This document shows positions 21,291-38,963 of a DNA stretch of 64,000 nucleotides, piece by piece. Positions within the stretch are counted from its first letter, which is position 1. Every line of letters begins with the position of its first letter. The DNA is from Clostridium sp. 12(A) (GTDB lineage Bacteria > Bacillota > Clostridia > Lachnospirales > Lachnospiraceae). Below the pieces are notes generated by a model. The model was not told the origin of the DNA. It did no database searches and worked only from the letters and a program-made list of their open reading frames with translations. A program made the position numbers and the translations under genes. Location of the stretch: positions 1,550,001 to 1,614,000 of the forward strand of contig JAGI01000002.1 in the NCBI GenBank assembly GCA_000526575.1. The letters run 5' to 3'.

Positions 21291-22394
21291 CTATGATTCG
21301 TTCTCTCCAAGCAGTATATCCGCGATTCGCTTGCTGGCAAAGCCATCCCCATAAGGATTACTGGCCTGACACATCTTATTGTAGGCCGCTTTATCATGAA
21401 GCAGGTTTCTTATGGATTGGTAGATCGCTTCTTCTTTCGTTCCTACCAGGCAAAGTGTACCTGCTTTGATTCCCTCCGGCCGTTCTGTAGTCTCCCGCAG
21501 GACAAGTACCGGTTTTCCAAGGCTTGGCGCCTCTTCCTGGATTCCTCCGCTGTCCGTTAATACAAGATAGGCTCTTGCAAGAATATTGTGAAAGTCAAGT
21601 ACATCCAGAGGCTCAATCAGATGAACCCGTTCCTCATCCTGAAAAACAGAGCCTGCAATCTCTCTGATGAGAGGATTTAAATGGACGGGATAAATGACCT
21701 TTACATCAGAATTTTCTTCCAGAATCCTCTTAATCCCGTGAAAGATACCCTCCATGGGTTTTCCTATATTCTCCCGCCTATGAGCAGTCAAAAGGATCAA
21801 CCTGCTTCCCAAAGCCCATGTCAGCTCCTCATGGCTGTAATCCTTTCTTATGGTTGTTTTTAGGGCATCAATGGCGGTATTCCCGGTCACATATATGTTG
21901 TCCTTATCTTTTCCTTCTTTTATGAGATTTAGTTTTGCCTGCTCCGTCGGTGCAAAATGATACCGGGCCACAATGCTGACTGCCTGTCTATTATATTCTT
22001 CCGGATAAGGAGAATAGATATCATAGGTTCTAAGCCCTGCCTCTACATGGCCTACCGGAATCTGTAAATAAAAGCTGGCAAGGGCCGTGGCAAAGGTCGT
22101 GGTGGTATCCCCGTGAACCAGTACCAGATCCGGGTGCTCTTTTTCCAAAATGGCTTTGATCCCATTTAGTATGTTGGCTGTAATTTCAAACAATGTCTGT
22201 TTTTCCTTCATAATGGAAAGATCATAATCCGGAATTACATCAAAAGCATTTAGCACCTGATCCAGCATTTTCCTGTGCTGACCTGTGACCAGAACACTTA
22301 CCCGGGCATTTTGCCGTTCTTTTAACACTTTGATAAGAGGGCACATTTTAATGGCTTCCGGCCTTGTCCCAAACACCACCATAATGCGTTTCAT
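21291..22394 (-). CDS. wecB: UDP-N-acetylglucosamine 2-epimerase, non-hydrolysing
   Basis: 367 aa. Signature segments: 'VVFGTRPEAIKMCPLI', 'VTGQHRKMLDQVL', 'VHGDTTTTFATALASF', 'VGHVEAGLRT', 'LTAHRRENIG' and 'LTDSGGIQEEAPSLGKPVLVLRETTERPEG'. It interconverts UDP-GlcNAc and UDP-ManNAc in the cytoplasm. It is the last gene of the exopolysaccharide run, 23 nt after the thioredoxin-GH8 gene, which suggests the polymer or a decoration contains ManNAc or a derivative. A housekeeping wall-teichoic-type role is also possible. No clear terminator was found in the following 164 bp. Confidence 0.93.
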   Translation of the reverse strand: MKRIMVVFGTRPEAIKMCPLIKVLKERQNARVSVLVTGQHRKMLDQVLNAFDVIPDYDLSIMKEKQTLFEITANILNGIKAILEKEHPDLVLVHGDTTTTFATALASFYLQIPVGHVEAGLRTYDIYSPYPEEYNRQAVSIVARYHFAPTEQAKLNLIKEGKDKDNIYVTGNTAIDALKTTIRKDYSHEELTWALGSRLILLTAHRRENIGKPMEGIFHGIKRILEENSDVKVIYPVHLNPLIREIAGSVFQDEERVHLIEPLDVLDFHNILARAYLVLTDSGGIQEEAPSLGKPVLVLRETTERPEGIKAGTLCLVGTKEEAIYQSIRNLLHDKAAYNKMCQASNPYGDGFASKRIADILLGENES

Positions 22395-22417
22395 ACTATA
22401 TCACCTCGTTTTCATTT

Positions 22418-24028
22418 TCATCTGGTATATTCATAAGCCAGCATAGCCATGATCTGATCAAAGGCAATGATACCGGTTCCATCGGTCATGCCAAAGGCTC
22501 CATGGTAGGCATAAGATGTATTAACAATTCTCATGATCTCCATTTTCTTTAAGGCTTTTCCCTGCAGGTCTTTATCCCCAATTTCTCTGGCGATCATAGC
22601 TGTCAGAGCATAGACAGCTGTTGAATCATATTGATAGCCGTTTACTGGCTGTCCTTCCACCGTATAGCGTGCTTTGATTCCTTCCCCTGAAATCTCTTTT
22701 TTCAGCCAGGCAATGCTTTCCTTAGGAAGCATATCAGCTTCTGCCAGATGTAACAGCGTGACCAATGCCTCCGCCGTATTTAAATCGTCCCTCTCATACT
22801 CCCTGGTCTTAAAATTATACCAGCTATAATACAAAGGAAAGCTGTCACTGATTCTGCCTTCCTCAATCAGCTTTCTGGCTTTTTCATATGGTTCCTTTAG
22901 GGTCTCATCCCGCTTTGCTAATTCAGACATTGTCTTAAGATCTCCATAGCATAGAGTGAACCGCGTTGCGTACTGCCTGTACTTCCTGTCGTAAAAATCA
23001 ACATACTGTCCATTGTTTACCCCATACCTGGCAATTGCTGCGGTGTAATCTTTAATTGCTTCCTCATAGCCGCCCCATACTTGGTTTGCTGCTATGAGGG
23101 CACTTAAAATTCTGAAATCATCAAGCAGTGCATTGGAATCCGCAGGCATATCTCCTGAAATCTTCCAGGCGGTCAGCCCATATAAGTTCATCTTACCGGT
23201 AATAAAGGAAAAGACTTTATCAAACAGCTGTTTGTTATTATTTAATACTGCAAATTCCAGCATCCCCCCCTGGGACTCGCTCAGAACGTCGCTCCTTTCT
23301 GTTTCTTCTCTGGAGCTTTCATAGCTTGTGTGGATTCCGCCTTTGTCATCCATCATATTTCCTGTAATAAAATCACAGGTCACCTTACCGCTTCCTTCTA
23401 TGGTATCCTTTAAATATCCTTCCAATACAGAAGTTTCTGTGATCTGTCTGGGACTCCATGCCCGGATGATTCCCTGTTCATCAAGAAACAAGGAGGTAGG
23501 AATATTGTGTAATCCCAATGTTTTATAGGCAGACAGACCATCGTCATAATACGTATTTAAGTCTATTCCCTGCTCAGTTAAGTACTGACTGGCCCTTTCC
23601 TTTGTTTCTTTCTTTTGATCCAGCCTATTGATCAGTAAAAAATTGATATCCCCGTATTTTTCGGCCGTCTTAAGTAACTCCTTCATAACCGACAGCTCCT
23701 TTTGGCAATCCGGGCACCAGCTGGCCCAGAATGTAAGGATGGTCGTTCTTCCTTCAAAGTCCCGGATGGATACCTTTTTTCCACTCTCATCCTGAAATGA
23801 GATATCCGGTATTTTTTCATTTAAATTACAGTATTCCGGCAGCTGGCTTGTTGTATCATCAAGAAAATTATCCTCTGTTTTTTCTTCCTCCCTTTGATTT
23901 AGCACCTGTTTTTTTGCTGTCGGGTATACAAGAAGCAGTATGCTGCCTGAAATTACAGTGACAGCCAGAATACAGAGGATGGCAAATAAAATTTTTTCTG
24001 GTTTTGACAATGGATGAACTGGTTTCAT
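22418..24028 (-). CDS. Membrane-anchored thioredoxin-like / glycoside hydrolase family 8-like fusion
   Basis: 536 aa. An N-terminal membrane helix (about 13-35) leads to an extracytoplasmic TlpA/ResA-like thioredoxin domain (about 65-210) with redox motif WCPDC at 104-108 and the cis-Pro in 'HNIPTSLFLD'. Residues about 220-536 resemble GH8 (BcsZ-type): 'LSESQGGMLEFAV' with the candidate acid Glu at 251, an Asp pair at 303-304, and 'NGYQYDSTAVYAL' with the candidate base Asp at 468. Start 24028 follows GGAG and overlaps the upstream stop as ATGA. Inferred role: cutting or release of the nascent glycan, linked to a thiol-redox activity. GH8 assignment rests on motif resemblance only. Confidence 0.78.
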   Translation of the reverse strand: MKPVHPLSKPEKILFAILCILAVTVISGSILLLVYPTAKKQVLNQREEEKTEDNFLDDTTSQLPEYCNLNEKIPDISFQDESGKKVSIRDFEGRTTILTFWASWCPDCQKELSVMKELLKTAEKYGDINFLLINRLDQKKETKERASQYLTEQGIDLNTYYDDGLSAYKTLGLHNIPTSLFLDEQGIIRAWSPRQITETSVLEGYLKDTIEGSGKVTCDFITGNMMDDKGGIHTSYESSREETERSDVLSESQGGMLEFAVLNNNKQLFDKVFSFITGKMNLYGLTAWKISGDMPADSNALLDDFRILSALIAANQVWGGYEEAIKDYTAAIARYGVNNGQYVDFYDRKYRQYATRFTLCYGDLKTMSELAKRDETLKEPYEKARKLIEEGRISDSFPLYYSWYNFKTREYERDDLNTAEALVTLLHLAEADMLPKESIAWLKKEISGEGIKARYTVEGQPVNGYQYDSTAVYALTAMIAREIGDKDLQGKALKKMEIMRIVNTSYAYHGAFGMTDGTGIIAFDQIMAMLAYEYTR

Positions 24029-26001
24029 TTTGGTTTTCTCCAAAGATTTAATTTGGGGGGCTTTCTCGTATGTTTTAAGTTTCCTGCTGTCTTTTTCTTA
24101 AGAGCATTCACTTTTTTTAATAATTCCTGATTAGACCTTTCCAGGGTTTGTATCTTATTGATTAATTCTTCTCTTTCCTTCTCATGAAATTTAGGAGGTA
24201 TTGCTTCTACCTCCCCACTGACATCATTCTCTTTTACAGGAGCGTCTTCCATATATTTCTTAGAAACGGTTACAATTACATTCCCTTTATCAATGGCTGA
24301 TTTCATATCAAAGGCATTGGTCATTTTATGGTAGCGGGTTTTAATTGCCTCATGCTCCTCTTCCTCAAAATGCTTTAACGCAAGTTCTTCTTTAAGCTTT
24401 ATTTTATCCCTATCCTGCTTTATAAGATCCTGGGATGTTACAAATCCTACGGCATTTTCAAAGATATATCCAATTCCCACGGAAGCAACGATCATAAAAA
24501 CCGGAAGCACATGAAAATGATACCGGTTCTGGCTCTCCACCAAAAGGTGCATTCCTACAGTTCCAAGATAGATAAGAATAGGAACATACAGATAAGAAGC
24601 CCTTCTCTTTAGCAGATAAATAAGGGTCATAAAGGAAAATAATGCAAATACCATATAGACCATATGATTTGTTTCTCTGGCCTCAATGAGAAAACCTGCC
24701 CGCTCTGGAGTCAGATGATTCTGCTCCTTTAAAAACGCCTGATTCCAGGTAACCCCGTAATCATCATTTCCCCAAAGTAATTCATATTTGTTAATAAATA
24801 AATCAAACAAAGCCTTTGGATCTTCCTTGATACGCTTCATTGCTTCCTTCCGGCAGGCAATCTGAGCCTCTATAGGAGAACCGGTACGTTCCAGATTTTC
24901 ATATAAAAACTTAGAATCCTCCTCATTCCAGCCGCCCCTTGATTTCTCATTTAACCCCACCAGAAGATTGTAGCCAACGGATTCTGAAAAGGAAGGAACG
25001 GAACGGTTAATGGTAAGCTCCGTATTTGTAGTTAAGACGTTTGACAGGATCAGATAGGAGGTCAGAATTAAAATCCCCCGGACCCAGCCTTTTCCCAAAA
25101 GCTGCACCAAAACAGGAATGCTGTTTTGAGGTATATTTGGCAGCCTCATTTTCAGGGGAAGTATGCATATAAGAATGGCTACTAAAAGAATCAATGCCAT
25201 CGGCCTTATGGCAGAAGTAACTGCAATCAGACAGCCTAACAGAATATGAAGGAGGAGCCCTCTCACTCCATGCTTGGTATCCCCGTGATAATCCATAACA
25301 AGATGAAGAAATAAAAGGAGAGATAAATAAAGGAAAAAAGAAAAGGAATACTCAGATGCCAGCATATTGATATAAAGGATCTGAGACGGCCAAAAAGCTG
25401 CTGCAGTCAGTGCAATTACACCTGGAAGCCTGCCACCTATTTTCCTGGCGATTCGATAAATAACTAAAACGGTTCCAACAGAAAACAGAACATTGGCAAG
25501 CTGTCCATTCCATACACTGGTTCCAAATAGAACAAACACCTGTTTTAAGATGTAGCAATAACCAATGATATGAGGAAACATGGCAATGTAGTTGCAATAT
25601 CCCTCCCCTTTCTCCTGTAACGTACCACGTTTCATCATTTCTGCCACTTCATAATAAGTTTTGTAGTCAGAGGCCGGCTCCATAGGAAGATGGGCTATCA
25701 CTGCATAGCGAAGGAAGAAAGCCGCCCACAGGATTAAAACTACATAAGCACCTTCCATCACAGGCATGAATGTTTTTTTCTTTTCCAGCTTCGTCCCTAT
25801 ATCAAGCCTTGCTAACAGCAATGCGATAAAATGAACTCCGACCCAGGTAAGGAAAAAGATGAGGATGAGCATGCCTTTCCTTGCATAGGGATATTCCTGA
25901 CTATTTCCTATCTCCGAAACGCCACAGATCAAAATATAGGCAAAGCCCACAATGGACAATGAAATGCATAAATAATAGAACCAGTTTTTTTCTAATTTCA
26001 T
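24025..26001 (-). CDS. Multi-spanning glycosyltransferase, GT39/ArnT-like, with C-terminal coiled coil
   Basis: About 658 aa. About 12 hydrophobic segments occupy residues 10-500. The first extracytoplasmic loop carries 'MEPASDYKTYYEVAEMM', the Asp-containing loop typical of GT-C enzymes that use polyprenyl-phosphate sugars. The cytoplasmic tail (about 510-658) is charged and predicted coiled coil ('LINKIQTLERSNQELLKKVNALKKK'), unusual for the family. Start 26001 follows GAGG; a start at 26013 is also possible. It lies 22 nt after the BcsB-like gene. Donor and acceptor unknown; decoration of the locus polysaccharide is inferred. Confidence 0.75.
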   Translation of the reverse strand: MKLEKNWFYYLCISLSIVGFAYILICGVSEIGNSQEYPYARKGMLILIFFLTWVGVHFIALLLARLDIGTKLEKKKTFMPVMEGAYVVLILWAAFFLRYAVIAHLPMEPASDYKTYYEVAEMMKRGTLQEKGEGYCNYIAMFPHIIGYCYILKQVFVLFGTSVWNGQLANVLFSVGTVLVIYRIARKIGGRLPGVIALTAAAFWPSQILYINMLASEYSFSFFLYLSLLLFLHLVMDYHGDTKHGVRGLLLHILLGCLIAVTSAIRPMALILLVAILICILPLKMRLPNIPQNSIPVLVQLLGKGWVRGILILTSYLILSNVLTTNTELTINRSVPSFSESVGYNLLVGLNEKSRGGWNEEDSKFLYENLERTGSPIEAQIACRKEAMKRIKEDPKALFDLFINKYELLWGNDDYGVTWNQAFLKEQNHLTPERAGFLIEARETNHMVYMVFALFSFMTLIYLLKRRASYLYVPILIYLGTVGMHLLVESQNRYHFHVLPVFMIVASVGIGYIFENAVGFVTSQDLIKQDRDKIKLKEELALKHFEEEEHEAIKTRYHKMTNAFDMKSAIDKGNVIVTVSKKYMEDAPVKENDVSGEVEAIPPKFHEKEREELINKIQTLERSNQELLKKVNALKKKTAGNLKHTRKPPKLNLWRKPK

Positions 26002-26023
26002 ACCATTCCTCATTCAAAACTTG

Positions 26024-28246
26024 TTATTCGTCTCGTTTCCGATACATACGGATACGCAGCAATATGATGATAACCGCAACCAGAATCAAGGACATGGCTG
26101 AAGTTGCGACAATGGTAAATATCACAGACCTTTTGTTTTGAACCAGTTTTTCCATCGGCGCTGGTTCTGCATTCGCTGCTGTGCCTTGAATGAATTGAAA
26201 GGCAGTGATGCTGGAATCAGGTGCAATGATCACACAATCCTTTGTAAGCTCATCCCTTTTTTTGCTTTGCCTTAGATATTCCTGGACGCGAGATATGGAC
26301 TCGCTGCTGCACCCGGTAATTGCAAGTAATCCCCGGTTTAAGGAAAAGGGAGATTTTATCAGCTGCATGATTCCAATCTGACCTGCGTAGTCTCTTGATA
26401 AAATAAGCTGCTCATTGCTTTCAAATCCTGTCCCATCGGGACTATAATGGAAGCTTAAGCTATCATTGATCTGGGCGATCAGGCTATTATCAAGAAACGT
26501 CCCCACAGTTATGATATTATAATCCCCATCATCCTTTTGAAACTCACTTCCCTTTCTTACGAGCAGGCTTCCATAGGGCTTTATTCCGCTGCCATACATA
26601 GCTACAACCTGCCCAAGAAGGTTCAGTTCATCTCCAGAAGGCTTATCCGGTATTACTAGCATAACCTGATTAAATTTCCCCTGACTTCGAAACGGGGAAC
26701 CTTTTACATCAAAGGAAAGATTTATCCCATTAGAAGGAGGTAAGAAAAGAGTGGATTCTTTGGAAACATAAGCCCATGGCATATCACTTTGTCTAGGTGT
26801 GCAGATCAGATCTGCAATCTCTAAATCAAAGGATATCTTTATGCTGCTTGCAGCTGTTCCTAAAATATCCCCTGGCATTTCAAAATTCAGCTCATCCCCG
26901 GAGGCATTTTCCTTGCTTAGGCGTTTACTGGCAATTGGTATCTCTCCCCAGGATACAGTGACTAGGGATCTTGTAAAATCAAGATTCTCGCTGTATCTGA
27001 ATTTTAATGCTACTTTTCCCCCTTCTGAAAGCACATAATCTCCAGTTACGGGAAGATAGACATAATTGTCCTGGTGAAAGGGACCGACAAACATCAGTCC
27101 GCTGCCCATAATATCCTCCAGCGTATAATTTCCTGCCATCATGTCGCTTTGCTTCCCTGCGTTCACAGCGATCTGACCGCTTCCTTTTTCTATGACAGCG
27201 GTCTGACCGCTCTCCTGCATCACCCGGTTTTCATCCATAAGCATATTGGAAGCCTCTATCAGGCTATCTTCTTCCATAGACGTTATAATGAGAAGCGGTC
27301 TGCCCTGAGAATCATCGGTAAATGTCACGGTTGCATTTCCAGTGGAATCAGGAGCTTTGCCTACCAGATTTTTATATTCCGCAGGAAGGTTATCGTAGGT
27401 AGATACCAGTATGGTTCTGGTAGTATCTTTATTTGCTGCATCAGATAAAAGGCATACTTCAATCTCATTCTTAGCTTTCGTCTCAGAGCTTAAGTCCGCC
27501 ATTATATTCATAGCCGCAGCTACCTCTCCACTTACAGCCTGATCGGAAACAGCAATAGTAAGACCTTTTCCTGTGGGATTATAGGTGGACATAAATGGAT
27601 AGGGATAATAAGAAATCCGGTGTTCCGGGTCTTTGGCCTCATAACCGCTCCTGATATGGGATGTATCATAAATCCGAAGCCAGTTGGCATCCGAAGCATC
27701 ATCCACACAGCCTTCCTCATCGAAAAGCCTGGCATAAGCAGAAATGGTCAGGGAGTTAAAACCGGTACGAATTTCACTTACCGGTATCTTTACGTAGAGA
27801 ATCTGAGGGCTGCCATTTTTATACTCCAGACGGTAAGACTGAATGGGCACACCATTGACTGACAGAGTTATGGAGGAGGCCTTTCCTTCCAAAAGCTGGC
27901 TGACATCATACTGAAGCTGGGCATAAACATACTTTACATCCCAATAACTGGGCGCAAAGAAATAAAGATCCGCAGACGAATAAATTCCTTTTAAGGTTTT
28001 CTGAGTAAAAAAATCATCCTGGGTATAGGTGGTGGGCTCATGGGCCGGCTCAGTCACATCCGGCGGGACCGCTTCCTCCGGATCAGCAACCGGAAGGAGG
28101 GGCGCCTGACTTTCAGTTTCCGGCTGTCCTTTACTTGTCACAGTCTGAGCAGTTGGCCTTATTTCTGCATATACTCTGGGTGCCAGCCCTTCTAAGATGA
28201 AAAGGACGAGTACCAGAGATACCCAAAGCTTTTTTTGTATTTTCAT
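26024..28246 (-). CDS. BcsB-like cyclic-di-GMP-associated cellulose synthase subunit homologue
   Basis: About 740 aa. A signal peptide ('KKLWVSLVLVLFILEGLAPRVYA') is followed by a large extracytoplasmic beta-rich region. BcsB family pattern: 'LYFFAPSYWDVKYVYAQLQYDVSQLL', 'LSVNGVPIQSYRL', 'VKIPVSEIRTGFNSLTISAYARLFDEEGC' and 'DANWLRI'. One C-terminal membrane helix ('RSVIFTIVATSAMSLILVAVIIILL') ends in a basic tail. In cellulose synthase BcsB anchors to BcsA and guides the polymer out. Start 28246 fits GAGG six bases upstream; a 33-codon longer frame would overlap the GT2 gene and obscure the signal peptide. Confidence 0.82.
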   Translation of the reverse strand: MKIQKKLWVSLVLVLFILEGLAPRVYAEIRPTAQTVTSKGQPETESQAPLLPVADPEEAVPPDVTEPAHEPTTYTQDDFFTQKTLKGIYSSADLYFFAPSYWDVKYVYAQLQYDVSQLLEGKASSITLSVNGVPIQSYRLEYKNGSPQILYVKIPVSEIRTGFNSLTISAYARLFDEEGCVDDASDANWLRIYDTSHIRSGYEAKDPEHRISYYPYPFMSTYNPTGKGLTIAVSDQAVSGEVAAAMNIMADLSSETKAKNEIEVCLLSDAANKDTTRTILVSTYDNLPAEYKNLVGKAPDSTGNATVTFTDDSQGRPLLIITSMEEDSLIEASNMLMDENRVMQESGQTAVIEKGSGQIAVNAGKQSDMMAGNYTLEDIMGSGLMFVGPFHQDNYVYLPVTGDYVLSEGGKVALKFRYSENLDFTRSLVTVSWGEIPIASKRLSKENASGDELNFEMPGDILGTAASSIKISFDLEIADLICTPRQSDMPWAYVSKESTLFLPPSNGINLSFDVKGSPFRSQGKFNQVMLVIPDKPSGDELNLLGQVVAMYGSGIKPYGSLLVRKGSEFQKDDGDYNIITVGTFLDNSLIAQINDSLSFHYSPDGTGFESNEQLILSRDYAGQIGIMQLIKSPFSLNRGLLAITGCSSESISRVQEYLRQSKKRDELTKDCVIIAPDSSITAFQFIQGTAANAEPAPMEKLVQNKRSVIFTIVATSAMSLILVAVIIILLRIRMYRKRDE

Positions 28247-28289
28247 CATCATCCTCGATTCTTCCGCAAACGGCGGCATATTCTCCAGC

Positions 28290-29591
28290 TTATTGCTTAG
28301 TATTCCCAGTTTTTTTCTCTTTCCTCTTCCCACCTGCTTCTTCAAAGCGCTCTGTTTTATCCCATATGACTTCCTTGTTAAAAAGCCTGTCCTGAACGCC
28401 CTGTATCACTCCGTTTAAAACCACCAGCACCCATAGCTTTGCATAGGTAAACAGCATAACAAAGGTGAGTAACAGGTTGCTGAAATTAAACTCATTTTTT
28501 TCTACCGATAGGGTAATTGCAACATTTAACACAAATAACAGAATGGCCATCTCCCAAAGAAGGGAAGAGAAGCCTCCCAGGGTCACATACCAAAAACCCA
28601 GAATTCCCATGACAAAGATCAAATCGGAAAAAACAAGGGAAGTAAACATCAGAAGATAGACCAAAGCATAGTAAATCACATCAAGCCTCATTCTTCCAGC
28701 TTCCGGATCAAACGCATATTTAAAATTGCTTTTCAGCACATATAAGTTTCCCTTTACCCAGCGGGTTCTTTGCTTGAACCACTGTTTTAGTATCTGAGGT
28801 TCCTGCTCCCAGGTGACTGCGTGGGGGATAAATTTAATATAATATCCCATTCGGTACAAGCGAAAACTGATTTCCGTATCCTCTGCAAGTGCATTGACAT
28901 CCCAGCCTCCCATTTGATCGATCAGCTCTCTTCGGATTACATAGTTGGTACCAGGTATGGTACACAGCTTAAAAAAGAAAAAACGTCCGGCCTGGTTCAT
29001 GCACTGATAGGCAAGGGTTTCGATGTTAACAAATCTGGTAAGCAGAGAAGCATACTTATTCCTGGTCCTGAATTTACCGATTACAGCACCTAATTTATCA
29101 TCTGACATCAGATTCTCTACGAGAATTTTAAGCGCCTGCCGTTCCGGGGTGTTGTCTGCATCATAGATTGCGATTACTGTACCTGACGCCACGGAAAGTG
29201 CGATGTTCAATGCATTGGATTTTCCCTTTCCTCCCACAATATTGTCCGTATTGATTACAATGATTCTGGACTCCGGATTGTCATGCTGTATCTGTTTTAG
29301 CACCTCACTGGAATTATCCGTAGAATTGTCATTGACCACAATGATTTCATATTTATCCCTGGGATAATCAAGCTTTATCAAGGCTTCCATGGTTTTTTGA
29401 ATCACAATACTTTCATTATGGGCAGGAACCATGACAGTTACCATTGGATATTCCGGAATTGCTTTATGACCATCTGTGCGGTACATCCTCATAATATAGA
29501 GAAAACCGCCAATGGAAAGCATAATATTTAAAAACATCAGTCCCCATATGGCAAAGATGGAATACAACGCCAGTACATCGACAATTGACAT
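28290..29591 (-). CDS. Processive membrane glycosyltransferase family 2, BcsA-like without PilZ
   Basis: About 433 aa. An N-terminal membrane helix, a GT-A domain with 'VPAHNES', 'NDNSTDN', DAD at about 144-146 and the catalytic 'LAEDTE' at about 236-238, then the processivity motif QRTRW at about 274-278, and four to five C-terminal membrane helices. This is the layout of cellulose, hyaluronan and PNAG synthases. Unlike BcsA it lacks a C-terminal PilZ domain; the tail is short and basic. GGGAGGG precedes ATG 29591. With the adjacent BcsB-like protein it should form the synthase core. Product sugar not readable from sequence. Confidence 0.85.
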   Translation of the reverse strand: MSIVDVLALYSIFAIWGLMFLNIMLSIGGFLYIMRMYRTDGHKAIPEYPMVTVMVPAHNESIVIQKTMEALIKLDYPRDKYEIIVVNDNSTDNSSEVLKQIQHDNPESRIIVINTDNIVGGKGKSNALNIALSVASGTVIAIYDADNTPERQALKILVENLMSDDKLGAVIGKFRTRNKYASLLTRFVNIETLAYQCMNQAGRFFFFKLCTIPGTNYVIRRELIDQMGGWDVNALAEDTEISFRLYRMGYYIKFIPHAVTWEQEPQILKQWFKQRTRWVKGNLYVLKSNFKYAFDPEAGRMRLDVIYYALVYLLMFTSLVFSDLIFVMGILGFWYVTLGGFSSLLWEMAILLFVLNVAITLSVEKNEFNFSNLLLTFVMLFTYAKLWVLVVLNGVIQGVQDRLFNKEVIWDKTERFEEAGGKRKEKKTGNTKQ

Positions 29592-29632
29592 ATACCCTCC
29601 CACAAATTAAAACATTCAAAGAAACAGATTTT

Positions 29633-31249
29633 TTAACCCTGGTCTTTCTCTTTTTCTCCACTCCCAAAGAAATAATTTCTGCGGTTGTTGTATCTGGCAA
29701 ACAAGATAAACAGGAGAAAAACCAGAGAGGTAATACCCACCATGAAAATCAGCAAACGGTTTTGAGATGTTAAGTCCTTGGAAAACCGCTGGAGCATATT
29801 TCTGTGATAATCAAAATTTTTCACATAAGTGCTTGGAAGAAAGCTCAAATCCTGTTTCTTTTGATTGAGAATCAGACCTTGATTTCCATACGTCATTAAA
29901 TCCTTTTCCATCCAGTAGCTGTGTTCCATGTCCCACAGGCTTTTTAAAGGAATCCTGGAGCTGCGGCAGGCATTGATTTTTAACAGGATTTCAGATGGAT
30001 CCGCCTCCATGGAAATCCAAACTGCAGTGGAATAAGCGGAAACATAGCTTGTACCAAGGTCGTCAAGAGCCACAGAACTGCCAATCCACTGATGACCGTC
30101 TTTATAGACCTCATTGGTGTTTCCCTCTGATGCATCAAGATAAGAATCCTCCTCGTTGGAGGTAACGATTGTCTTAAAATGCCTCATGATCTCAATGGTA
30201 TCCGGGTGAAACATCCAATTACGGGGCACCTGTAAGGCAAGAGGATACACTCCCTGTTTGTTGTAGATTGAGAGGGCCTGTGCCAGATAATCCAGAACAA
30301 CATTTTTATCAAGGGGATTCATCTGATTGATGGGAGTATTGATAATAACTGCCCCTCCATTTGCCTGGGCATACCGTAGAATCTCGCAAAAGCGGACCAT
30401 AGCCGGATAATCCCCGTTCACATACATGGGCATGACTGATATGACAAATGGTGTCTTTCCTTTTACCAGCATTTTAACCACGCCCATCAGCTTTTCTGGA
30501 TCCTCATAGGGGTAAACCTTATTAACTACAATATATTGAGGAAATATATTGGGACTTCCGTTAAAGGGCCATTTCCACTGGGCCACTTCTTTTATGAATA
30601 CAGCCTTTATCAATGGATCATCGAAATCCGTTATCGGTAAATGAGTCAAAGCCCCTTCTCTTGCACAAACATATCCTTCTTTCTCACTTACAGTAAGTCC
30701 TCCATTTTTATAACTTAAGTTTTTTAAAAACAGAAAAAACGGTTCCTTTGCCATACTGGTCCGCTGGCTCAGATCATCAAAATTATAACGAATCTTACCC
30801 GTTGTACTTTTGATGTACTCATAAGACTGGTCCCTTCCTGTCTGATCAAGGTATGCCTTTAAAAATTCATTGCCAACAAAAAAGATATGACTTGCTTCTT
30901 TCGTCTCCCCGGTGTGATTCTCCTCGTACAATCTAAGCTTTTCTGGAAATTCACTGGGGTACGTGGTGATATCGTAACAGATGACATAAGAGAATTTATT
31001 TAGGTCATCCATGCACTCAGAAGCAGTTCCATAGCTTACTTTAAAGCTTTGATACGTGAGGATTTCAACCATATCAGAGACCATCCTCCCAGTATTCTTA
31101 TCAGAACCGTCACTGTAAATAATTAGAATATCGCCTTTTTCTATCTGCTTTTGATCCGCGGCCCAAACCGCTGGCTGACAGTATAATGCGGATAAGACAT
31201 ACATGGCAAAACCAATTATCCATCTTTTACACATCGTATTGAAGTTCAT
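29633..31249 (-). CDS. Secreted, membrane-anchored DUF2334-like (degenerate polysaccharide deacetylase-fold) protein
   Basis: 538 aa. A signal peptide ('WIIGFAMYVLSALYCQPAVWA') is followed by an N-terminal Rossmann-like region ('DILIIYSDGSDKNTGRMVSDMVEILTYQS' split around residue 45). A segment at about 245-420 resembles DUF2334 ('VYPYEDPEKLMGVVKMLV', 'TPFVISVMPMYV'). The usual deacetylase His-x-x-x-His is not seen, and 'NGGAVIINTPIN' stands where DUF2334 proteins usually have a His-Gly motif, so catalysis is doubtful. A C-terminal helix ('LLIFMVGITSLVFLLFILFA') anchors it. It overlaps the GGDEF-like gene by 23 nt. Possibly a glycan-binding partner of the synthase. Confidence 0.68.
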   Translation of the reverse strand: MNFNTMCKRWIIGFAMYVLSALYCQPAVWAADQKQIEKGDILIIYSDGSDKNTGRMVSDMVEILTYQSFKVSYGTASECMDDLNKFSYVICYDITTYPSEFPEKLRLYEENHTGETKEASHIFFVGNEFLKAYLDQTGRDQSYEYIKSTTGKIRYNFDDLSQRTSMAKEPFFLFLKNLSYKNGGLTVSEKEGYVCAREGALTHLPITDFDDPLIKAVFIKEVAQWKWPFNGSPNIFPQYIVVNKVYPYEDPEKLMGVVKMLVKGKTPFVISVMPMYVNGDYPAMVRFCEILRYAQANGGAVIINTPINQMNPLDKNVVLDYLAQALSIYNKQGVYPLALQVPRNWMFHPDTIEIMRHFKTIVTSNEEDSYLDASEGNTNEVYKDGHQWIGSSVALDDLGTSYVSAYSTAVWISMEADPSEILLKINACRSSRIPLKSLWDMEHSYWMEKDLMTYGNQGLILNQKKQDLSFLPSTYVKNFDYHRNMLQRFSKDLTSQNRLLIFMVGITSLVFLLFILFARYNNRRNYFFGSGEKEKDQG

Positions 31250-32090
31250 TTTCTACCCTTTGCTTAAATTGCATCATGTCATCTCCAAACTCTTCCTTAC
31301 TGTATTCCATGCTGGCCATTTTCACTTCTATCTTAATGGCATGATCGGCAATGTCAGAAAAAGCATCCCTTTCTGAAATCCGGCTTCGCAGCCTCCCCAT
31401 AGCAATTTCGCTTCCTTCCTTGTCACAGGTCATAATGATTGCCAGACTTCCTTTGTGATCGGTAGAGTAAGTCTTGTCCTCTACCCGGACGGTGTCGGAT
31501 ACAATCTGAGCCAGACGCTGTATCACCCTCTCATAATTCTGGCGTGACAAAATGCTTTTAAGCTCTGATTCATATTTAAGCACGATAACCATGAGAGACA
31601 GGGGGAGCTTGTTTCTTTCTGCATAGGATACCTGGATATACAGATCATGATACAAGCTTCTTAAGTTATATAGCTTTGTAAGTGGATTCACCATGACCAG
31701 TTCCTCCACCTGCTCCCTTAAGATATCATTTTCCAGTTCCAGCTTTCGATTGCCGGAAACAAACAAATACATGGCTGCTACGGATAGTATAGGAAGAAAT
31801 ATCCACACAAAGCTGATCAGTGGAATTTCCGTCTCATAGGCAAGAAACAGATACAAGCGGTAAGCCGTATAAATGAGGACCTCCAGACCTGACAGCACAA
31901 TGGACAGACCAAACAGCTTAAAGCCAGTGAGAAGTATTGCTAAAAAGATGAAAAGAAGCATAAGCACGGCTTCAAAAAGCAATGGTTTGGGCGTGTAGCT
32001 CACGGTCAAAGCCCCTGTAAACAGACAGGCGAGCAATAAGACCAGCCCCAGATCCTGGAACAGATAGCCATACGATTTATGCTTTGTCAT
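31227..32090 (-). CDS. Membrane protein with degenerate GGDEF domain (RxxD retained), PelD-like regulator candidate
   Basis: 287 aa. Four hydrophobic helices (about 12-110), a short coiled coil (115-132), then a diguanylate-cyclase fold starting 'NPLTKLYNLRSLYHDL' (the usual D-x-LT-x-L-x-N-R segment). The signature GGDEF is replaced by HKGSL (212-216), so cyclase activity is not expected. Upstream, RVED (202-205) sits where the RxxD inhibitory site binds c-di-GMP in active enzymes. In PelD a degenerate GGDEF with an intact RxxD is the c-di-GMP receptor that switches on Pel synthesis. Inferred to do the same here. AGGAGG precedes the ATG. Confidence 0.8.
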   Translation of the reverse strand: MTKHKSYGYLFQDLGLVLLLACLFTGALTVSYTPKPLLFEAVLMLLFIFLAILLTGFKLFGLSIVLSGLEVLIYTAYRLYLFLAYETEIPLISFVWIFLPILSVAAMYLFVSGNRKLELENDILREQVEELVMVNPLTKLYNLRSLYHDLYIQVSYAERNKLPLSLMVIVLKYESELKSILSRQNYERVIQRLAQIVSDTVRVEDKTYSTDHKGSLAIIMTCDKEGSEIAMGRLRSRISERDAFSDIADHAIKIEVKMASMEYSKEEFGDDMMQFKQRVENELQYDV

Positions 32091-32144
32091 TTGTCCTTTT
32101 TCCTCCTATTCTTCTACACCTAAGACAACCAGATTCCATACTTT

Positions 32145-33683
32145 TTAAACGATCTTTATCTTATGCTGCAGCTCCGCAAACACACAATATGTCATAATAT
32201 CAAGGGAAAGTCCCACCAGGAAGGTGCGCTGAACCATTTCTGCATCACCACTGCCAATAATCACGATGATTGACTGGGATAACAGCACCCCTAAAACAGT
32301 AATAAGCATATCTAAAAAAATGGTATTGCTCCGATTTTCTCCAGGCCGAATGGAATACCCTTTGTAAAACAGGAAGAAGATAAACCCCGTAAGCACAATA
32401 AGATAACCAATGGTTTTAGGCGCCGACATCATCTTAAAGGTGCTCCAGCCTGACCAGAAAAGACTCTTCGCCTTTAGGGGCATTCCCGCAGATATTTCAT
32501 AATTTCCGCAGCTTCCTCTTCTGATATCCATTCCTGCCCCAATAGAGACATCAATCATTCCTAACATGCTTCCCGGATGGCGAAGGTAATAGACGGCTAT
32601 GTCAGAAGCAGAGTATTGATCCAGAAATCCATGGTACAAGGAATCATCTCCTGCCTTTACCAGGGGCAGATAATCGTAAGCCGAGGAATCGGTCAACAGC
32701 TCATAAGAAGGATTGATTCCGAACTCCTCAAGGGTTTCTGATGGACTTGATGATACAAATAATACCCCTCTTGTCATTGCATGCAATTTGCTGGTCTCAC
32801 CGAAATCAGATGGATAGATGAAAATACATAAAATAGAAATCAGGCTGAGAACAAAAGCAGTTCCTATGCAGCTAACTCCCCAGATAAAACTTCTTCTTAC
32901 AAAAATAAGCCTGATGACATATATGGCAAATAAAAAGCCAAGAACTGCACATTGACGTCTGGAGCTGAGTAAAATGACAGCCGAGAATAAAAACAGCATC
33001 AGACTAAAAAAATCCCGGTAGCCGGACCGTTCTTTTTGAAAAGACATAGAGGCACCAACACAGTAGAGCATTGCAATGAGCCATATGGCTTCCGGATAAA
33101 AGGAGTTAAAGTAGGTTAAGTATCCGATATCAGAAAATATTACGAGTCCGGCTGCCGCAATCAATGCTCCCTCGGTAAATTGCCTCACCCGCTTACATAC
33201 CTCCCGAATCAAGAGATACACGGCTGGAAGATAAAGGATCAGATAAAGAAGTCCTAAAAACCGGATATCAAAATAATGGTCTCTTGTAAATAAATAATCC
33301 AGTGACTTCGCTATCCTTAAAATGATTACCTGACTGTTTATAGTCTTGCCCGGCATATCCTCCCCCGATGCAACGGTTGAGTAGGTTTTTATAAAATAAT
33401 TGTTATAAATGAGGTCCGGCTCTCTTTCTATATAGTAAATACCAGCTGATCTCATCACCTCATCGGTGGAACCGTCTCCTGCCACTCCAAGATAATTAGG
33501 TAAAAAGAGAATGACAAAAGCAATTATCGCAGTTATGACTGTAACAAGAAGAGCCAGCCGGGAAGGGGAATACCTGCCTTCCATCTTAAAATTCACATTT
33601 CTTAAAAATCCCCTGATCTTACTCAGAAACGTCACGAATCTGGTAAGATGCCTGGCTGCAAACGACTCTTCACGATTCTTCAT
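32145..33683 (-). CDS. Multi-spanning membrane protein of the polysaccharide locus, possible GT-C
   Basis: 512 aa, about 10 to 12 hydrophobic segments. The first membrane helix is followed by an outward loop with 'VAGDGSTDEVMRSAGIYY', an acidic loop in the position of GT-C catalytic residues; a further large loop lies at about 285-375. I do not recognise a named family. GGAG precedes the ATG. It overlaps the GtrB-like gene by 14 nt; a GtrB-type enzyme often works with a membrane GT-C partner that transfers from undecaprenyl-phosphate sugar, which suits this protein. A 54-nt gap separates it from the GGDEF-like gene. Confidence 0.62.
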   Translation of the reverse strand: MKNREESFAARHLTRFVTFLSKIRGFLRNVNFKMEGRYSPSRLALLVTVITAIIAFVILFLPNYLGVAGDGSTDEVMRSAGIYYIEREPDLIYNNYFIKTYSTVASGEDMPGKTINSQVIILRIAKSLDYLFTRDHYFDIRFLGLLYLILYLPAVYLLIREVCKRVRQFTEGALIAAAGLVIFSDIGYLTYFNSFYPEAIWLIAMLYCVGASMSFQKERSGYRDFFSLMLFLFSAVILLSSRRQCAVLGFLFAIYVIRLIFVRRSFIWGVSCIGTAFVLSLISILCIFIYPSDFGETSKLHAMTRGVLFVSSSPSETLEEFGINPSYELLTDSSAYDYLPLVKAGDDSLYHGFLDQYSASDIAVYYLRHPGSMLGMIDVSIGAGMDIRRGSCGNYEISAGMPLKAKSLFWSGWSTFKMMSAPKTIGYLIVLTGFIFFLFYKGYSIRPGENRSNTIFLDMLITVLGVLLSQSIIVIIGSGDAEMVQRTFLVGLSLDIMTYCVFAELQHKIKIV

Positions 33684-34635
33684 GCTGTTTCTCCAAAAGA
33701 TTATTTGTTTCCACGTTATACCTGGGACGCTGTTTTACTTCTATATAAATCTTTCCGATATAAGTTCCTATGAGGCCAACCGACAAAAGCTGAACCCCGC
33801 CGATAAACCATATGGACAAAATAATAGAGGTCCAGCCTGCTACTACTCTTCCCGATAAATAGGAATAAAACCCATAGATCGCTGCCAGAATGCTAAAGAG
33901 CACAATCAACAGGCCAAGATTCGTAATCATGAGGATGGGCTGAATGCTAAAGGAAGTTATACCCTCAAAAGCCATAGAAAGCATCTTGCTGAAAGGATAT
34001 TTGGATTCTCCGGCAATTCTTAATTTCCTGTCGTACGTAACGACTGTGGAACGATATCCAATTAAGGGGATGATTCCCCTTAAAAAGAGATTTCTCTCCT
34101 CATAACGGGAGAATACCTCTACGGCCCGTTTGGACATGAGCCTGTAATCTGCATGGTTGTATACAATATCAATCTTCATTGCCCGCATTAACCGGTAAAA
34201 ACCAAGGGCAGTTGTTCTTTTAAAAAAAGTATCGGTATCTCTTTTCTTTCTGACTCCATAAACAATGTCATAGCCCTGAATAAATTTATCTACCATCTCC
34301 TCTATGACAGAAACATCATCCTGCAAATCAGCATCAATGGATACAATCATATCTCCGTAATCCTTTGCCGCAAGAAGTCCTGCTGTAAGCGCATTTTGAT
34401 GACCACTATTTTTAGCCAGCTTTAATCCATAGACAAAGGGAGACTCTTTATGATACTCCTCTATGATATTCCAGGTCTTGTCTCTGCTACCATCATCCAC
34501 ATAAAGAATAAAGCTGCCGCGCCCCACTTTCCCCGCTTCCACCAGCCTTTGTATGATGCTAATCAATTCCTTATTGGTATATGCAAGTGCTTCTTCTTCG
34601 TTATAACAGGGTACTACAATACAAAGTCTGTTCAT
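33670..34635 (-). CDS. Polyprenyl-phosphate glycosyltransferase, GtrB/DPM1-like GT2
   Basis: 321 aa. GT-A domain with 'VVPCYNEEEAL', 'YVDDGSRDKTW', 'GHQNALTAGLLAA', 'VSIDADLQDD' and 'ESKYPFSKMLSMAFEG', then two C-terminal membrane helices (about 230-295) and 'GLIGTYIGKIYIEVKQRPRYNV'. Family members transfer glucose or another sugar from a nucleotide donor to undecaprenyl phosphate on the inner membrane face. GAGGGA lies 8 nt before the ATG. First substantial gene of the operon; the start codon overlaps the stop of a short leader frame (34632-34706). No GtrA-type flippase is seen nearby. Confidence 0.9.
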   Translation of the reverse strand: MNRLCIVVPCYNEEEALAYTNKELISIIQRLVEAGKVGRGSFILYVDDGSRDKTWNIIEEYHKESPFVYGLKLAKNSGHQNALTAGLLAAKDYGDMIVSIDADLQDDVSVIEEMVDKFIQGYDIVYGVRKKRDTDTFFKRTTALGFYRLMRAMKIDIVYNHADYRLMSKRAVEVFSRYEERNLFLRGIIPLIGYRSTVVTYDRKLRIAGESKYPFSKMLSMAFEGITSFSIQPILMITNLGLLIVLFSILAAIYGFYSYLSGRVVAGWTSIILSIWFIGGVQLLSVGLIGTYIGKIYIEVKQRPRYNVETNNLLEKQHEES

Positions 34636-34734: not shown

Positions 34735-34774
34735 TAAAAAAACCAGTGCCAGGAATTCCATCCTGATACTGGTT
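34735..34774 (-). terminator. Terminator after motB
   Basis: AACCAGT..CAGGA pairs with TCCTG..ACTGGTT across a short loop, followed on the minus strand by a run of seven T. It lies about 70 bp past the motB stop and just upstream of the polysaccharide operon. Confidence 0.8.
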
Positions 34775-34842: not shown

Positions 34843-35628
34843 CTACTTTACTTGATGTTCTTCCAGATTATTATATTTAGAACTTAAAACAATAACATCA
34901 ATACGTCTGTTGCTTGATCTTCCTTCTGCTGTTCCATTATCCGCTACCGGCTTATATTCTCCGTAGCCTACTGCAATCAGCTTATCCGGCGGAAAATTGC
35001 ATTTGTTAATAAAGAGCTTTACCACATTAACTGCTCTGGCAGTAGATAATTCCCAGTTGGAAGCATAAGGGCTTCGTCTGATGGGAGTATTATCTGTATG
35101 GCCTTCAATACGTATGTAGTTATCTGTTGTATTCAGAATACTTGCAACTTCTATCAAAGTATCCTCGTGTTTTTTTATCTCTGCACTTCCCGATTCGAAC
35201 AGTACCGCATTGTTTAACCGGATTACCAGACCACGCATGTCAATCATGGTGGAAGCAGACTGGTCCATACCATCTGAGTGGATTTTATTATCAAGCTCTA
35301 CCTTTAAAGCTTCCAGTTTTTTAAGTTCATATTCTCCGAAAAAGCTCTCAAGCTCACTTTTTGTTTCAATATTTAAGGGGCCTCCTGACTGGGGACCACC
35401 GCCACCACCGCCACTGCCGCTTCCTGACCCATTGCCAGTGTAATTCTTATCCATGTTGGCTGCGGCGAACTGTTCTGACATCTCCTGTGCTTTACTGGCA
35501 TCAATCTTACTAACCGCAAAAAGTACAATGAAAACTGCCAGGAGAAGAGTCATTAAGTCGGAATAAGGCAGCAGCCAAGCTTCTCCAGCTTCCTCTTCCT
35601 GATGTGCATGCTTTCTCTTTTTTGACAT
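34843..35628 (-). CDS. motB: Flagellar motor stator protein MotB
   Basis: 261 aa. The N-terminal charged segment and a single membrane helix hold the proton/ion-binding Asp ('WLLPYSDLMTLLLAVFIVLFAVSKID'). A Gly/Ser linker follows (about 75-90). The C-terminal OmpA-like peptidoglycan-binding domain has 'RIEGHTDNTPIRRSPYASNWELSTARAVNVV' and 'GYGEYKPVADN..AEGRSSNRRIDV'. It anchors the stator to the wall. It lies 11 nt after motA. AAGGTGATTACG precedes the ATG. No other flagellar genes are in the window. Confidence 0.93.
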   Translation of the reverse strand: MSKKRKHAHQEEEAGEAWLLPYSDLMTLLLAVFIVLFAVSKIDASKAQEMSEQFAAANMDKNYTGNGSGSGSGGGGGGPQSGGPLNIETKSELESFFGEYELKKLEALKVELDNKIHSDGMDQSASTMIDMRGLVIRLNNAVLFESGSAEIKKHEDTLIEVASILNTTDNYIRIEGHTDNTPIRRSPYASNWELSTARAVNVVKLFINKCNFPPDKLIAVGYGEYKPVADNGTAEGRSSNRRIDVIVLSSKYNNLEEHQVK

Positions 35629-35639
35629 TCGTAATCACC

Positions 35640-36425
35640 TTATCCCTTTTTATCTTGTCCGTTAATTTTATTCTGAGTAGATTTCGGTAAAGAGGCAAGT
35701 AATTTCTCTTTTAATATAAACGGAGAATCTCCATTCTGCATGGATAAGATACCTACTATAATCATTTCTTTTGTCATTATTTCCTGCTGGCTTTTAACTT
35801 TAAGCTTTTTTGCAAATGGATTCCATAATACATAGCCTGTAAAGATACCTAAAATAGTAGCAATAAATGCTGCAGAAATCGCTTCCGCCATCTGGTCTGT
35901 ATCATTAATATGAGACATGGCTGCAATCAGACCGAAAACCGCACCCAATACACCCAGGGTAGGAGCATACATACCAGCTGAGGAGAAAATACTTGAATTG
36001 ATTTCATGACGCTTTTCGATTCCCGCTATTTCCGTTTCCAAAATCTCTTCGATCAGTTCTGCTCCAGTACCGTCGACCAGCAATCGAACCCCTTTCTTTA
36101 AAAAAGGATCCTTAATCTCTTCTACCTTAGCTTCCAGGGATAAAAGACCTTCGGAACGAGCCTGCTTCGATAAATTATAGATTAAGTCGATCAACTCAGC
36201 CTCTGATGCTTCCTTCTTATTTGTAAAAAGGATCTTGAACAAAGAGCCGATTTTTTTTAAATTTTTGCCTGGAAATGAATTTAAAATCGTCGCGATGGTG
36301 CCAACAATAATTACAAAAAAGGCTGCCGGATTTAAAAGTACAGCAAAATCAATGTGCTTAAAAATCATCGCTCCAACAACGGCGACAACTCCGACGATAA
36401 CGCCTAGGATGGTAGTTAATTCCAT
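35640..36425 (-). CDS. motA: Flagellar motor stator protein MotA
   Basis: 261 aa. Four membrane helices: two N-terminal (5-25, 32-50) and two later (about 148-170, 180-200: 'YAPTLGVLGAVFGLIAAMSHINDTD' and 'MAEAISAAFIATILGIFTGYVLWNPFAKKLK'), with a large cytoplasmic loop of charged residues between ('SLEAKVEEIKDPFLKKGVRLLVDGTG'). Forms the ion channel of the stator with MotB. AAAGGAG before the ATG. A possible promoter (TTAACA, 18 bp, TATTAT) lies at 36506-36535 on the minus strand; no sigma-D type promoter was recognised. Confidence 0.93.
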   Translation of the reverse strand: MELTTILGVIVGVVAVVGAMIFKHIDFAVLLNPAAFFVIIVGTIATILNSFPGKNLKKIGSLFKILFTNKKEASEAELIDLIYNLSKQARSEGLLSLEAKVEEIKDPFLKKGVRLLVDGTGAELIEEILETEIAGIEKRHEINSSIFSSAGMYAPTLGVLGAVFGLIAAMSHINDTDQMAEAISAAFIATILGIFTGYVLWNPFAKKLKVKSQQEIMTKEMIIVGILSMQNGDSPFILKEKLLASLPKSTQNKINGQDKKG

Positions 36426-38933: not shown

Positions 38934-38963
38934 ATGAACTCCTGAAAACTGCCTGAAATGCAA

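Follow-up and report, generated by a model that had tools for sequence, protein, structure and literature searches.

We found that a nine-gene operon of Clostridium sp. 12(A), working as proposed below, is quite probably a clostridial (Lacrimispora-type) variant of the Pss exopolysaccharide (EPS) system of Listeria and the Yda system of Bacillus subtilis. The operon lies in a window of 64,000 nucleotides (nt; contig JAGI01000002.1, positions 1,550,001 to 1,614,000), to which all coordinates refer unless a locus handle precedes them. The role best supported by its sequence is the synthesis and export of an N-acetylmannosamine (ManNAc) polymer, gated by cyclic di-GMP (c-di-GMP). Five of its proteins are homologous to the core proteins PssA to PssE, the characteristic residues of its GT2 synthase and GH126 hydrolase are intact, its receptor-like protein has kept the I-site and lost the GGDEF motif, and the co-location of these genes is conserved. 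An earlier note on this DNA had taken the operon for an undescribed mix, part Bcs and part Pel; this view did not hold, since counterparts of all five Listeria Pss proteins are present. The system is not a new one: it is a known Pss/Yda core with clostridial additions.

A Pss-type core of five proteins

The nine open reading frames (ORFs) all lie on the minus strand and fill positions 21291-34635 exactly, tightly spaced or overlapping, as the earlier note had described. From 5′ to 3′, the GtrB and PssA-like genes overlap by 14 nt, the PssA-like and GGDEF genes are 54 nt apart, GGDEF and DUF2334 overlap by 23 nt, a 29-nt gap separates DUF2334 from the QxxRW GT2, the GT2 and BcsB-like genes overlap by 56 nt, BcsB and GT39 are 10 nt apart, GT39 and thioredoxin-GH126 overlap by 19 nt, and 23 nt lie between thioredoxin-GH126 and WecB. 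The GT2/BcsB junction would instead be a 10-nt gap if the BcsB-like protein started at an internal ATG at 28279.

A synthase core of a GT2 and a BcsB-like protein had been suspected, and matches to PssC, PssD and PF03170 now confirm it. The GT2 (28290..29603; 437 amino acids (aa) from a GTG, with an ATG start probably at 29591), a predicted processive synthase like PssC and YdaM, is 55.5% identical to Listeria PssC over 420 columns (E 1e-173; BLAST E-values against Listeria PssA to PssE are for a nine-protein database of the window proteins). The DAD, ED and QxxRW (here QRTRW) residues of GT2 enzymes are invariant in 81 of 81 aligned proteins. The predicted export subunit of the BcsB family (26024..28345; 773 aa from a TTG, the true start being probably nearer 28279), which is PssD/YdaN-like, scores 149.9 bits against PF03170 (cut-off 21) and is 27.4% identical to Listeria PssD (BLAST E 1e-75); searched by sequence against the Protein Data Bank (PDB), it returned no chain at E 0.1.

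The third core protein (31227..32090, 287 aa) is a PssE/YdaK-like membrane protein with a degenerate GGDEF domain (Pfam 32.6 bits, cut-off 23.8; TIGR00254 26.9 bits, under its cut-off of 37.4), 26.9% identical to Listeria PssE (BLAST E 1e-24). The sequence bears out the suggestion that it is a likely c-di-GMP receptor: in an alignment of 78 such proteins from the window, two reference loci and the survey loci described below, the RxxD of the I-site is retained in 73 (R202 in 73, D205 in 74) and a GGDEF-like motif in none. In the window protein the predicted I-site, RVED (R202-D205; 31476..31487), is followed after five residues by DHKGS at the degenerate GGDEF position (31446..31460). The same five-residue spacing is described for YdaK, whose I-site mutants R202A and D205A abolish EPS. 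With its membrane helices, GGDEF domain and YdaK-type spacing the putative receptor is PssE/YdaK-like, and the Pel-like regulation envisaged earlier was not upheld. With 18 GGDEF matches, including the one in the operon, and five EAL matches in the host genome (4.6 Mb, three contigs), a c-di-GMP signal could exist.

Five PssE homologues lack RxxD while the operon is kept: those of two Ligilactobacillus, Secundilactobacillus yichangensis, Enterococcus moraviensis and E. faecalis (L021:13613-14473, L118, L120, L121 and L122). Enterococci are described as devoid of c-di-GMP signalling (PMC4125290). These loci suggest a switch independent of c-di-GMP.

The product of the second gene (32145..33683, 512 aa) had been described as an unnamed multi-spanning protein. 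It is multi-spanning, and it does have a name: it scores 412.7 bits against NF051875 (WsfD, cut-off 80), a family that also covers Listeria PssA (564.8 bits; six of the six PssA proteins tested exceed the cut-off), and is 27.8% identical to PssA over 472 columns (BLAST E 1.8e-59). Its AlphaFold model (mean predicted confidence, pLDDT, 89.0) resembles GT-C enzymes with a Z score of 15.2. The modelled GT-C fold, together with the adjacent GtrB gene, makes this protein probably a side-chain transferase that uses a lipid-linked sugar.

The DUF2334 protein (29633..31249, 538 aa; PF10096 31.3 bits, cut-off 26) is PssB/YdaL-like, with an amidotransferase-like or carbohydrate-binding-module (CBM)-like domain, a deacetylase-like barrel and a C-terminal helix; it matches Listeria PssB with 23.6% identity across 110 residues only (BLAST E 4e-11). 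As modelled, it aligns with both domains of Agd3 (CE18) and appears to share with it a CBM-like alpha/beta/alpha domain followed by a deacetylase barrel, a layout likewise described for PelADA of Bacillus cereus (CE26). Unlike these deacetylases, the window protein has Asn/Asn at the positions that may correspond to the Asp and HxxxH metal ligands of active CE4/CE18 enzymes. These candidate positions vary across the family: the Asp occurs in 22/80 and the His in 19/80 of the loci, and in 19/31 and 21/31 of DUF2334 alignment A1. The DUF2334 profile had no significant match among PDB sequences (best E 0.57), and our literature search found no paper combining DUF2334 with a glycosyltransferase, GGDEF and a polysaccharide.

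The pssA-E genes and pssZ of Listeria monocytogenes thus provide counterparts of all five core proteins, of the I-site receptor and of a GH126 hydrolase, PssZ, which we take to be the product of lmo1913. Their order is A-B-C-D-E in Listeria and A-E-B-C-D in the window, which, unlike Listeria pss, adds GtrB, a second GT-C protein, a thioredoxin domain on the hydrolase and WecB. The core therefore belongs to an already characterised pathway, and these four additions do not. The hydrolase gene lies inside the window operon, whereas none occurs in the annotated Listeria pss stretch; the putative glycosidase gene lmo1913 sits in the dgc operon (PMC4125290). The pss operon is described as making a ManNAc-ManNAc-Gal repeat, and the resulting coat is tied to survival on produce. 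In the available text of PMC4125290, PssA is given no role and the name PssB does not occur.

Three further loci are comparable. That of Enterococcus faecalis shares with the window 31% identity in the hydrolase, 28% in the PssA-like protein, 20% in DUF2334, 53% in the GT2 and 23% in the GGDEF protein; its BcsB region gives a tblastn match (26%) where the annotation table lists no gene. The ydaJKLMN genes of B. subtilis, likened here by description only, comprise a hydrolase, a degenerate GGDEF receptor with RxxD and three synthesis/export genes, and the available text on these five genes describes no PssA, GtrB, GT39 or WecB. We take YdaL, YdaM and YdaN to be the DUF2334, GT2 and BcsB-like proteins. 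GSL-I, a lectin that recognises alpha-galactosyl and alpha-GalNAc residues, binds the yda EPS. Clostridioides difficile 630, again by description, has a BcsA/B pair of GT2 and BcsB with WecB and a deacetylase-like protein, the hydrolase named being GH113 where the window has GH126; a ManNAc-rich polymer was predicted for this locus, independently of the present analysis, by Scott et al. 2020 (PMC7710045). Beyond that passage, our literature search found no paper on the operon in Clostridia, no search having been aimed solely at it. None of the papers listed for a search on Lacrimispora, EPS and c-di-GMP contained the name Lacrimispora, which does not prove absence.

Neighbourhoods of related synthases

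An alignment of seven GT2 sequences was used to scan named genomes of bacteria and archaea, and we analysed the best 80 of 545 GT2 relatives; these loci were picked by the GT2 alone, and their rank reflects how similar they are to the window and its alignment. The core genes are conserved together: 73 of the 80 loci have the full set A, B, C, D and E, with core gaps of 60 nt or less at 285 of 304 junctions, and 63 of the 73 also have the GH126 hydrolase. By these neighbourhood counts the grouping of the nine genes is not due to chance. Among the seven incomplete loci, three are on short contigs (L063, L075, L108), two lack E (L051, L098), one lacks A and B (L105), and L096 lacks only the bait gene in the ORF table, though tblastn detects it.

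The order A-B-C-D-E prevails in Paenibacillus, Cohnella, Listeria, lactobacilli, Enterococcus and Acetobacterium. The window order, A-E-B-C-D, is found in 24 loci, which belong to named Clostridia, to metagenome-assembled genomes (MAGs) titled Clostridia or Bacillota, and to three others, namely two MAGs with Paenibacillaceae in the title and GT2 scores like those of Lacrimispora, and one Tepidibacillus MAG. Gene order is a single change on the GT2 tree. The minimum numbers of presence changes are six for GtrB, seven for WecB, four for GT39, four for the thioredoxin-GH126 fusion and two for MBOAT, on a quick tree of 75 rows without bootstrap whose change counts cannot separate gain from loss. 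The GT39-like gene occurs in 16 of the 73 full-core loci, all of them in the group with the clostridial order, the thioredoxin-GH126 fusion in 16, WecB in 15 and GtrB in 14.

By its GT2 and GtrB, which are 99% and 96.6% identical to those of [Clostridium] aerotolerans DSM 5434, the host is a Lachnospiraceae of Lacrimispora type. The DUF2334 protein was found in 16/25 genomes of the genus (the window's own and one of the same species counted), in 4/299 genera of the family, sampled at one genome per genus (own counted), and in 15/299 of a phylum sample, own counted and mostly as weak matches. The system is thus patchy.

Genes added to the core

The last gene of the operon (21291..22394, 367 aa) encodes a predicted WecB/MnaA, a non-hydrolysing UDP-GlcNAc 2-epimerase, scoring 512.8 bits against TIGR00236 (cut-off 210.15). 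Supply of the ManNAc precursor by WecB, proposed in the earlier note, is borne out by the sequence, this being the only non-hydrolysing epimerase above the cut-off in the genome. The runner-up (79.7 bits) is a hydrolysing NeuC (440.5 bits, cut-off 235.9) adjoining NeuB (461.4, cut-off 399.65). The NeuC sialic-acid pathway yields free ManNAc, not UDP-ManNAc, and no member of the WecG/TagA family was found in the host genome. Taken together, the UDP-ManNAc supply looks dedicated to the operon or to another WecG-free pathway. Separately, the NeuB and NeuC homologues (L124:476-2661 of the same genome) indicate that the host seems able to make a sialic-acid-type sugar.

The preceding gene (22418..24043, 541 aa) encodes a predicted membrane-anchored TlpA-type thioredoxin domain fused to a GH126 hydrolase. 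An extracytoplasmic hydrolase and a thioredoxin fusion had both been anticipated, and both stand, whereas the assignment of the hydrolase to GH8 does not. The N-terminal domain matches AhpC/TSA (PF00578, 54.5 bits); GH8 is sub-threshold (21.1 bits, cut-off 24), and the C-terminal domain matches 3REN (CPF_2247, E 1.2e-44) and 6R2M (PssZ, 2.2e-9) far better than the true GH8 enzyme 1CEM (0.002). Both 3REN and 6R2M are GH126, the family in which CAZy places PssZ (PMC7479077). Glu256, the candidate general acid, lies in a conserved (S/A)ES stretch (23276..23278) aligned with 3REN and 6R2M; together with Asp308 and Asp309 it is invariant in 69/69 proteins of one alignment and in 121/121 thioredoxin-GH126 relatives. 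The thioredoxin motif WCPDC (23705..23719) appears as WCxxC in 17/17 fused loci. Such fusions, including a CPDC-bearing protein of Bacteroides xylanolyticus, are known from PMC7479077, which in its available text treats the proteins alone and not an operon.

Two DsbD/CcdA-type matches above the cut-off in the genome could supply electrons to the thioredoxin domain. A simple model in which cysteines put the GH126 domain under redox control is weak: Cys365 is present in 121/121 thioredoxin-GH126 relatives (window counted) and also in 24/51 unfused proteins, and among the relatives Cys72 is conserved in 112/120 and Cys223 is not conserved. Because the relatives all share no less than 46% identity with the query, kinship confounds this conservation.

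The first gene (33670..34635, 321 aa) encodes a GtrB-like GT2, a predicted polyprenyl-phosphate hexose synthase (PF00535 91 bits; NF047588, PgfS, 234 bits, under the cut-off of 500), which has three further matches in the genome, the nearest 35% identical. The seventh (24025..26013, 662 aa) encodes a GT39/PMT_2-like second GT-C (PF13231 28.3 bits, cut-off 26.1) with a charged, coiled-coil-like C-terminal tail, as read from the sequence. GtrB and a GT-C transferase are encoded together by overlapping genes, as in three-component glycosylation by GtrA, GtrB and a GT-C. A GtrA flippase had no match in the operon and two above the cut-off elsewhere in the genome. Of the 14 GtrB genes in full-core loci, nine immediately precede PssA (in eight Lacrimispora-type loci and one of Herbinix), and that of Tepidibacillus is some 370 nt ahead of it. 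The remaining four are a copy next to the hydrolase in Paenibacillus and three doubtful matches (L091, an 84-aa piece; L103, 24.7% identity; L107, on the opposite strand). A second WsfD-like region occurs in long ORFs (1000-1049 aa) beside GT39 genes of some clostridial loci (L060:17781-20783, L062:17840-20872, L051:9780-12929).

Seven loci without GtrB (L056, L057, L059-L063), several of them with GT39 and the fusion, have MBOAT-like and SGNH-like proteins nearby. In L061 the first protein matches MBOAT in Pfam (102 bits) and the second a laminin-G-like domain; the SGNH-like label is a reading of the sequence, not a Pfam match. These clostridial loci suggest acylated versions of the polymer.

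Directly upstream of the operon, on the same strand, are the stator genes motB and motA (34843-36425). Between them and the operon, downstream of motB, lies a terminator-like hairpin with a T-run (34736..34773, minus strand, by sequence match only), which marks the operon's upstream boundary and excludes motAB from it. The annotated stretches of the pss-type loci of Listeria and Enterococcus list no mot gene. The whole window, searched for a c-di-GMP riboswitch, has no Rfam match above the gathering score. Elsewhere in the window are a putative ice-binding-like adhesive protein (37239-38963; pAdhesive_15, 124 bits) with a long Cys-Pro-rich repeat tail, and a surface protein of 1631 aa (42156-47051) with BspA leucine-rich repeats and S-layer homology domains.

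Proposed working and alternatives

From the above we infer what the substrate, linkage and side chain are, that c-di-GMP is bound, and what each protein does, as follows. WecB would make UDP-ManNAc, which the PssC-like GT2 would polymerise, probably into beta-1,4-linked poly-ManNAc, while moving the chain across the membrane. Outside, the BcsB/PssD protein and the PssB protein with its deacetylase fold would take over the chain. The degenerate GGDEF protein would bind c-di-GMP through its I-site and thereby turn the synthase on. GtrB would charge undecaprenyl phosphate with a hexose, to be added as a side branch outside the cell by the PssA/WsfD GT-C and perhaps also by the second GT-C, and the membrane-tethered thioredoxin-GH126 protein may trim or release chains.

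Several points weigh against this scheme. Helical models can reach a best Z of 14 with unrelated structures, near the 15.2 of PssA; homology to PssB is weak over the full length; and GtrB is linked in 14 of the 73 full-core loci only, three of them doubtful. Lactobacilli other than those named above keep RxxD, so loss of the I-site does not simply track the order. The yda genes are described without PssA, which is therefore not essential to every such system, and the GH126 enzyme CPF_2247 is reported to be amylolytic, so the substrate is not fixed by the family. In the literature we found no report of a polymer from a clostridial pss-type locus.

The donor sugar cannot be read from sequence, and WecB lies within the fetched flanks of only 15/73 full-core loci. 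A Pss-type machine might accordingly build a chain of another amino sugar, such as N-acetylglucosamine, while WecB or GtrB and the GT-C proteins serve a different envelope glycan. We regard this as rather unlikely, given that WecB is the operon's last gene and the genome's only non-hydrolysing epimerase above the cut-off, that WecG/TagA was not found, and that PssC, the closest characterised synthase found, makes a ManNAc polymer.

Less probable still is that GtrB, WsfD and GT39 form an independent protein glycosylation unit, for an S-layer or adhesin, placed in the operon by chance. GtrB does resemble PgfS, which belongs to a streptococcal protein-glycosylation system, and surface-protein genes are nearby in the window, but PssA/WsfD is present in 73/73 full-core loci from Clostridia, Paenibacillus, Listeria and lactobacilli, and Listeria pssA-E is tied to the Pss EPS.

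That the operon makes cellulose or a cellulose-like polymer, as Bcs or clostridial Ccs systems do, is very improbable: this would account for the BcsB match, the QxxRW GT2 and a GH126 domain described as structurally near GH8, but the GT2 scores only 87.5 bits on CelA (cut-off 699.1), has no PilZ domain by Pfam and is 55% identical to PssC, while Ccs, as described, has a PilZ-bearing CcsA, partners of the GH5, MBOAT and DHHW families and a CcsB without homology to BcsB, and the PilZ GT2, GH5, MBOAT and DHHW families are not among the matches of the nine proteins. Synthesis of poly-N-acetylglucosamine was rejected on the GT2 score of 172.1 bits against PgaC_IcaA (cut-off 422.3). Pel operons have a PelF-type GT4 polymerase, and no GT4 family is above the cut-off among the nine proteins (best 14.9 against 28.5 bits, in WecB).

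Reading the operon as a Pss/Yda variant allows a more tentative, and to us somewhat doubtful, generalization. Pss-type loci of Bacillota might encode a modular poly-ManNAc synthase. Its fixed core would include PssA as a GT-C side-chain enzyme that uses a lipid-linked hexose and PssB as a scaffold with a deacetylase fold but no catalysis. The decorations would be swappable (a GtrB module where the genome is Lacrimispora-type, an MBOAT/SGNH-like pair in other Clostridia), and the clostridial extras would be a second GT-C and a hydrolase whose fused thioredoxin domain puts it under redox control.

The clostridial additions suggest functions for PssA and PssB. That PssA is here encoded beside the class of enzyme that charges lipid carriers with hexose bears on the question of which protein adds galactose in Pss. 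As a prediction, the operon also brings a large group of anaerobes within the range of c-di-GMP-gated EPS of the ManNAc type.

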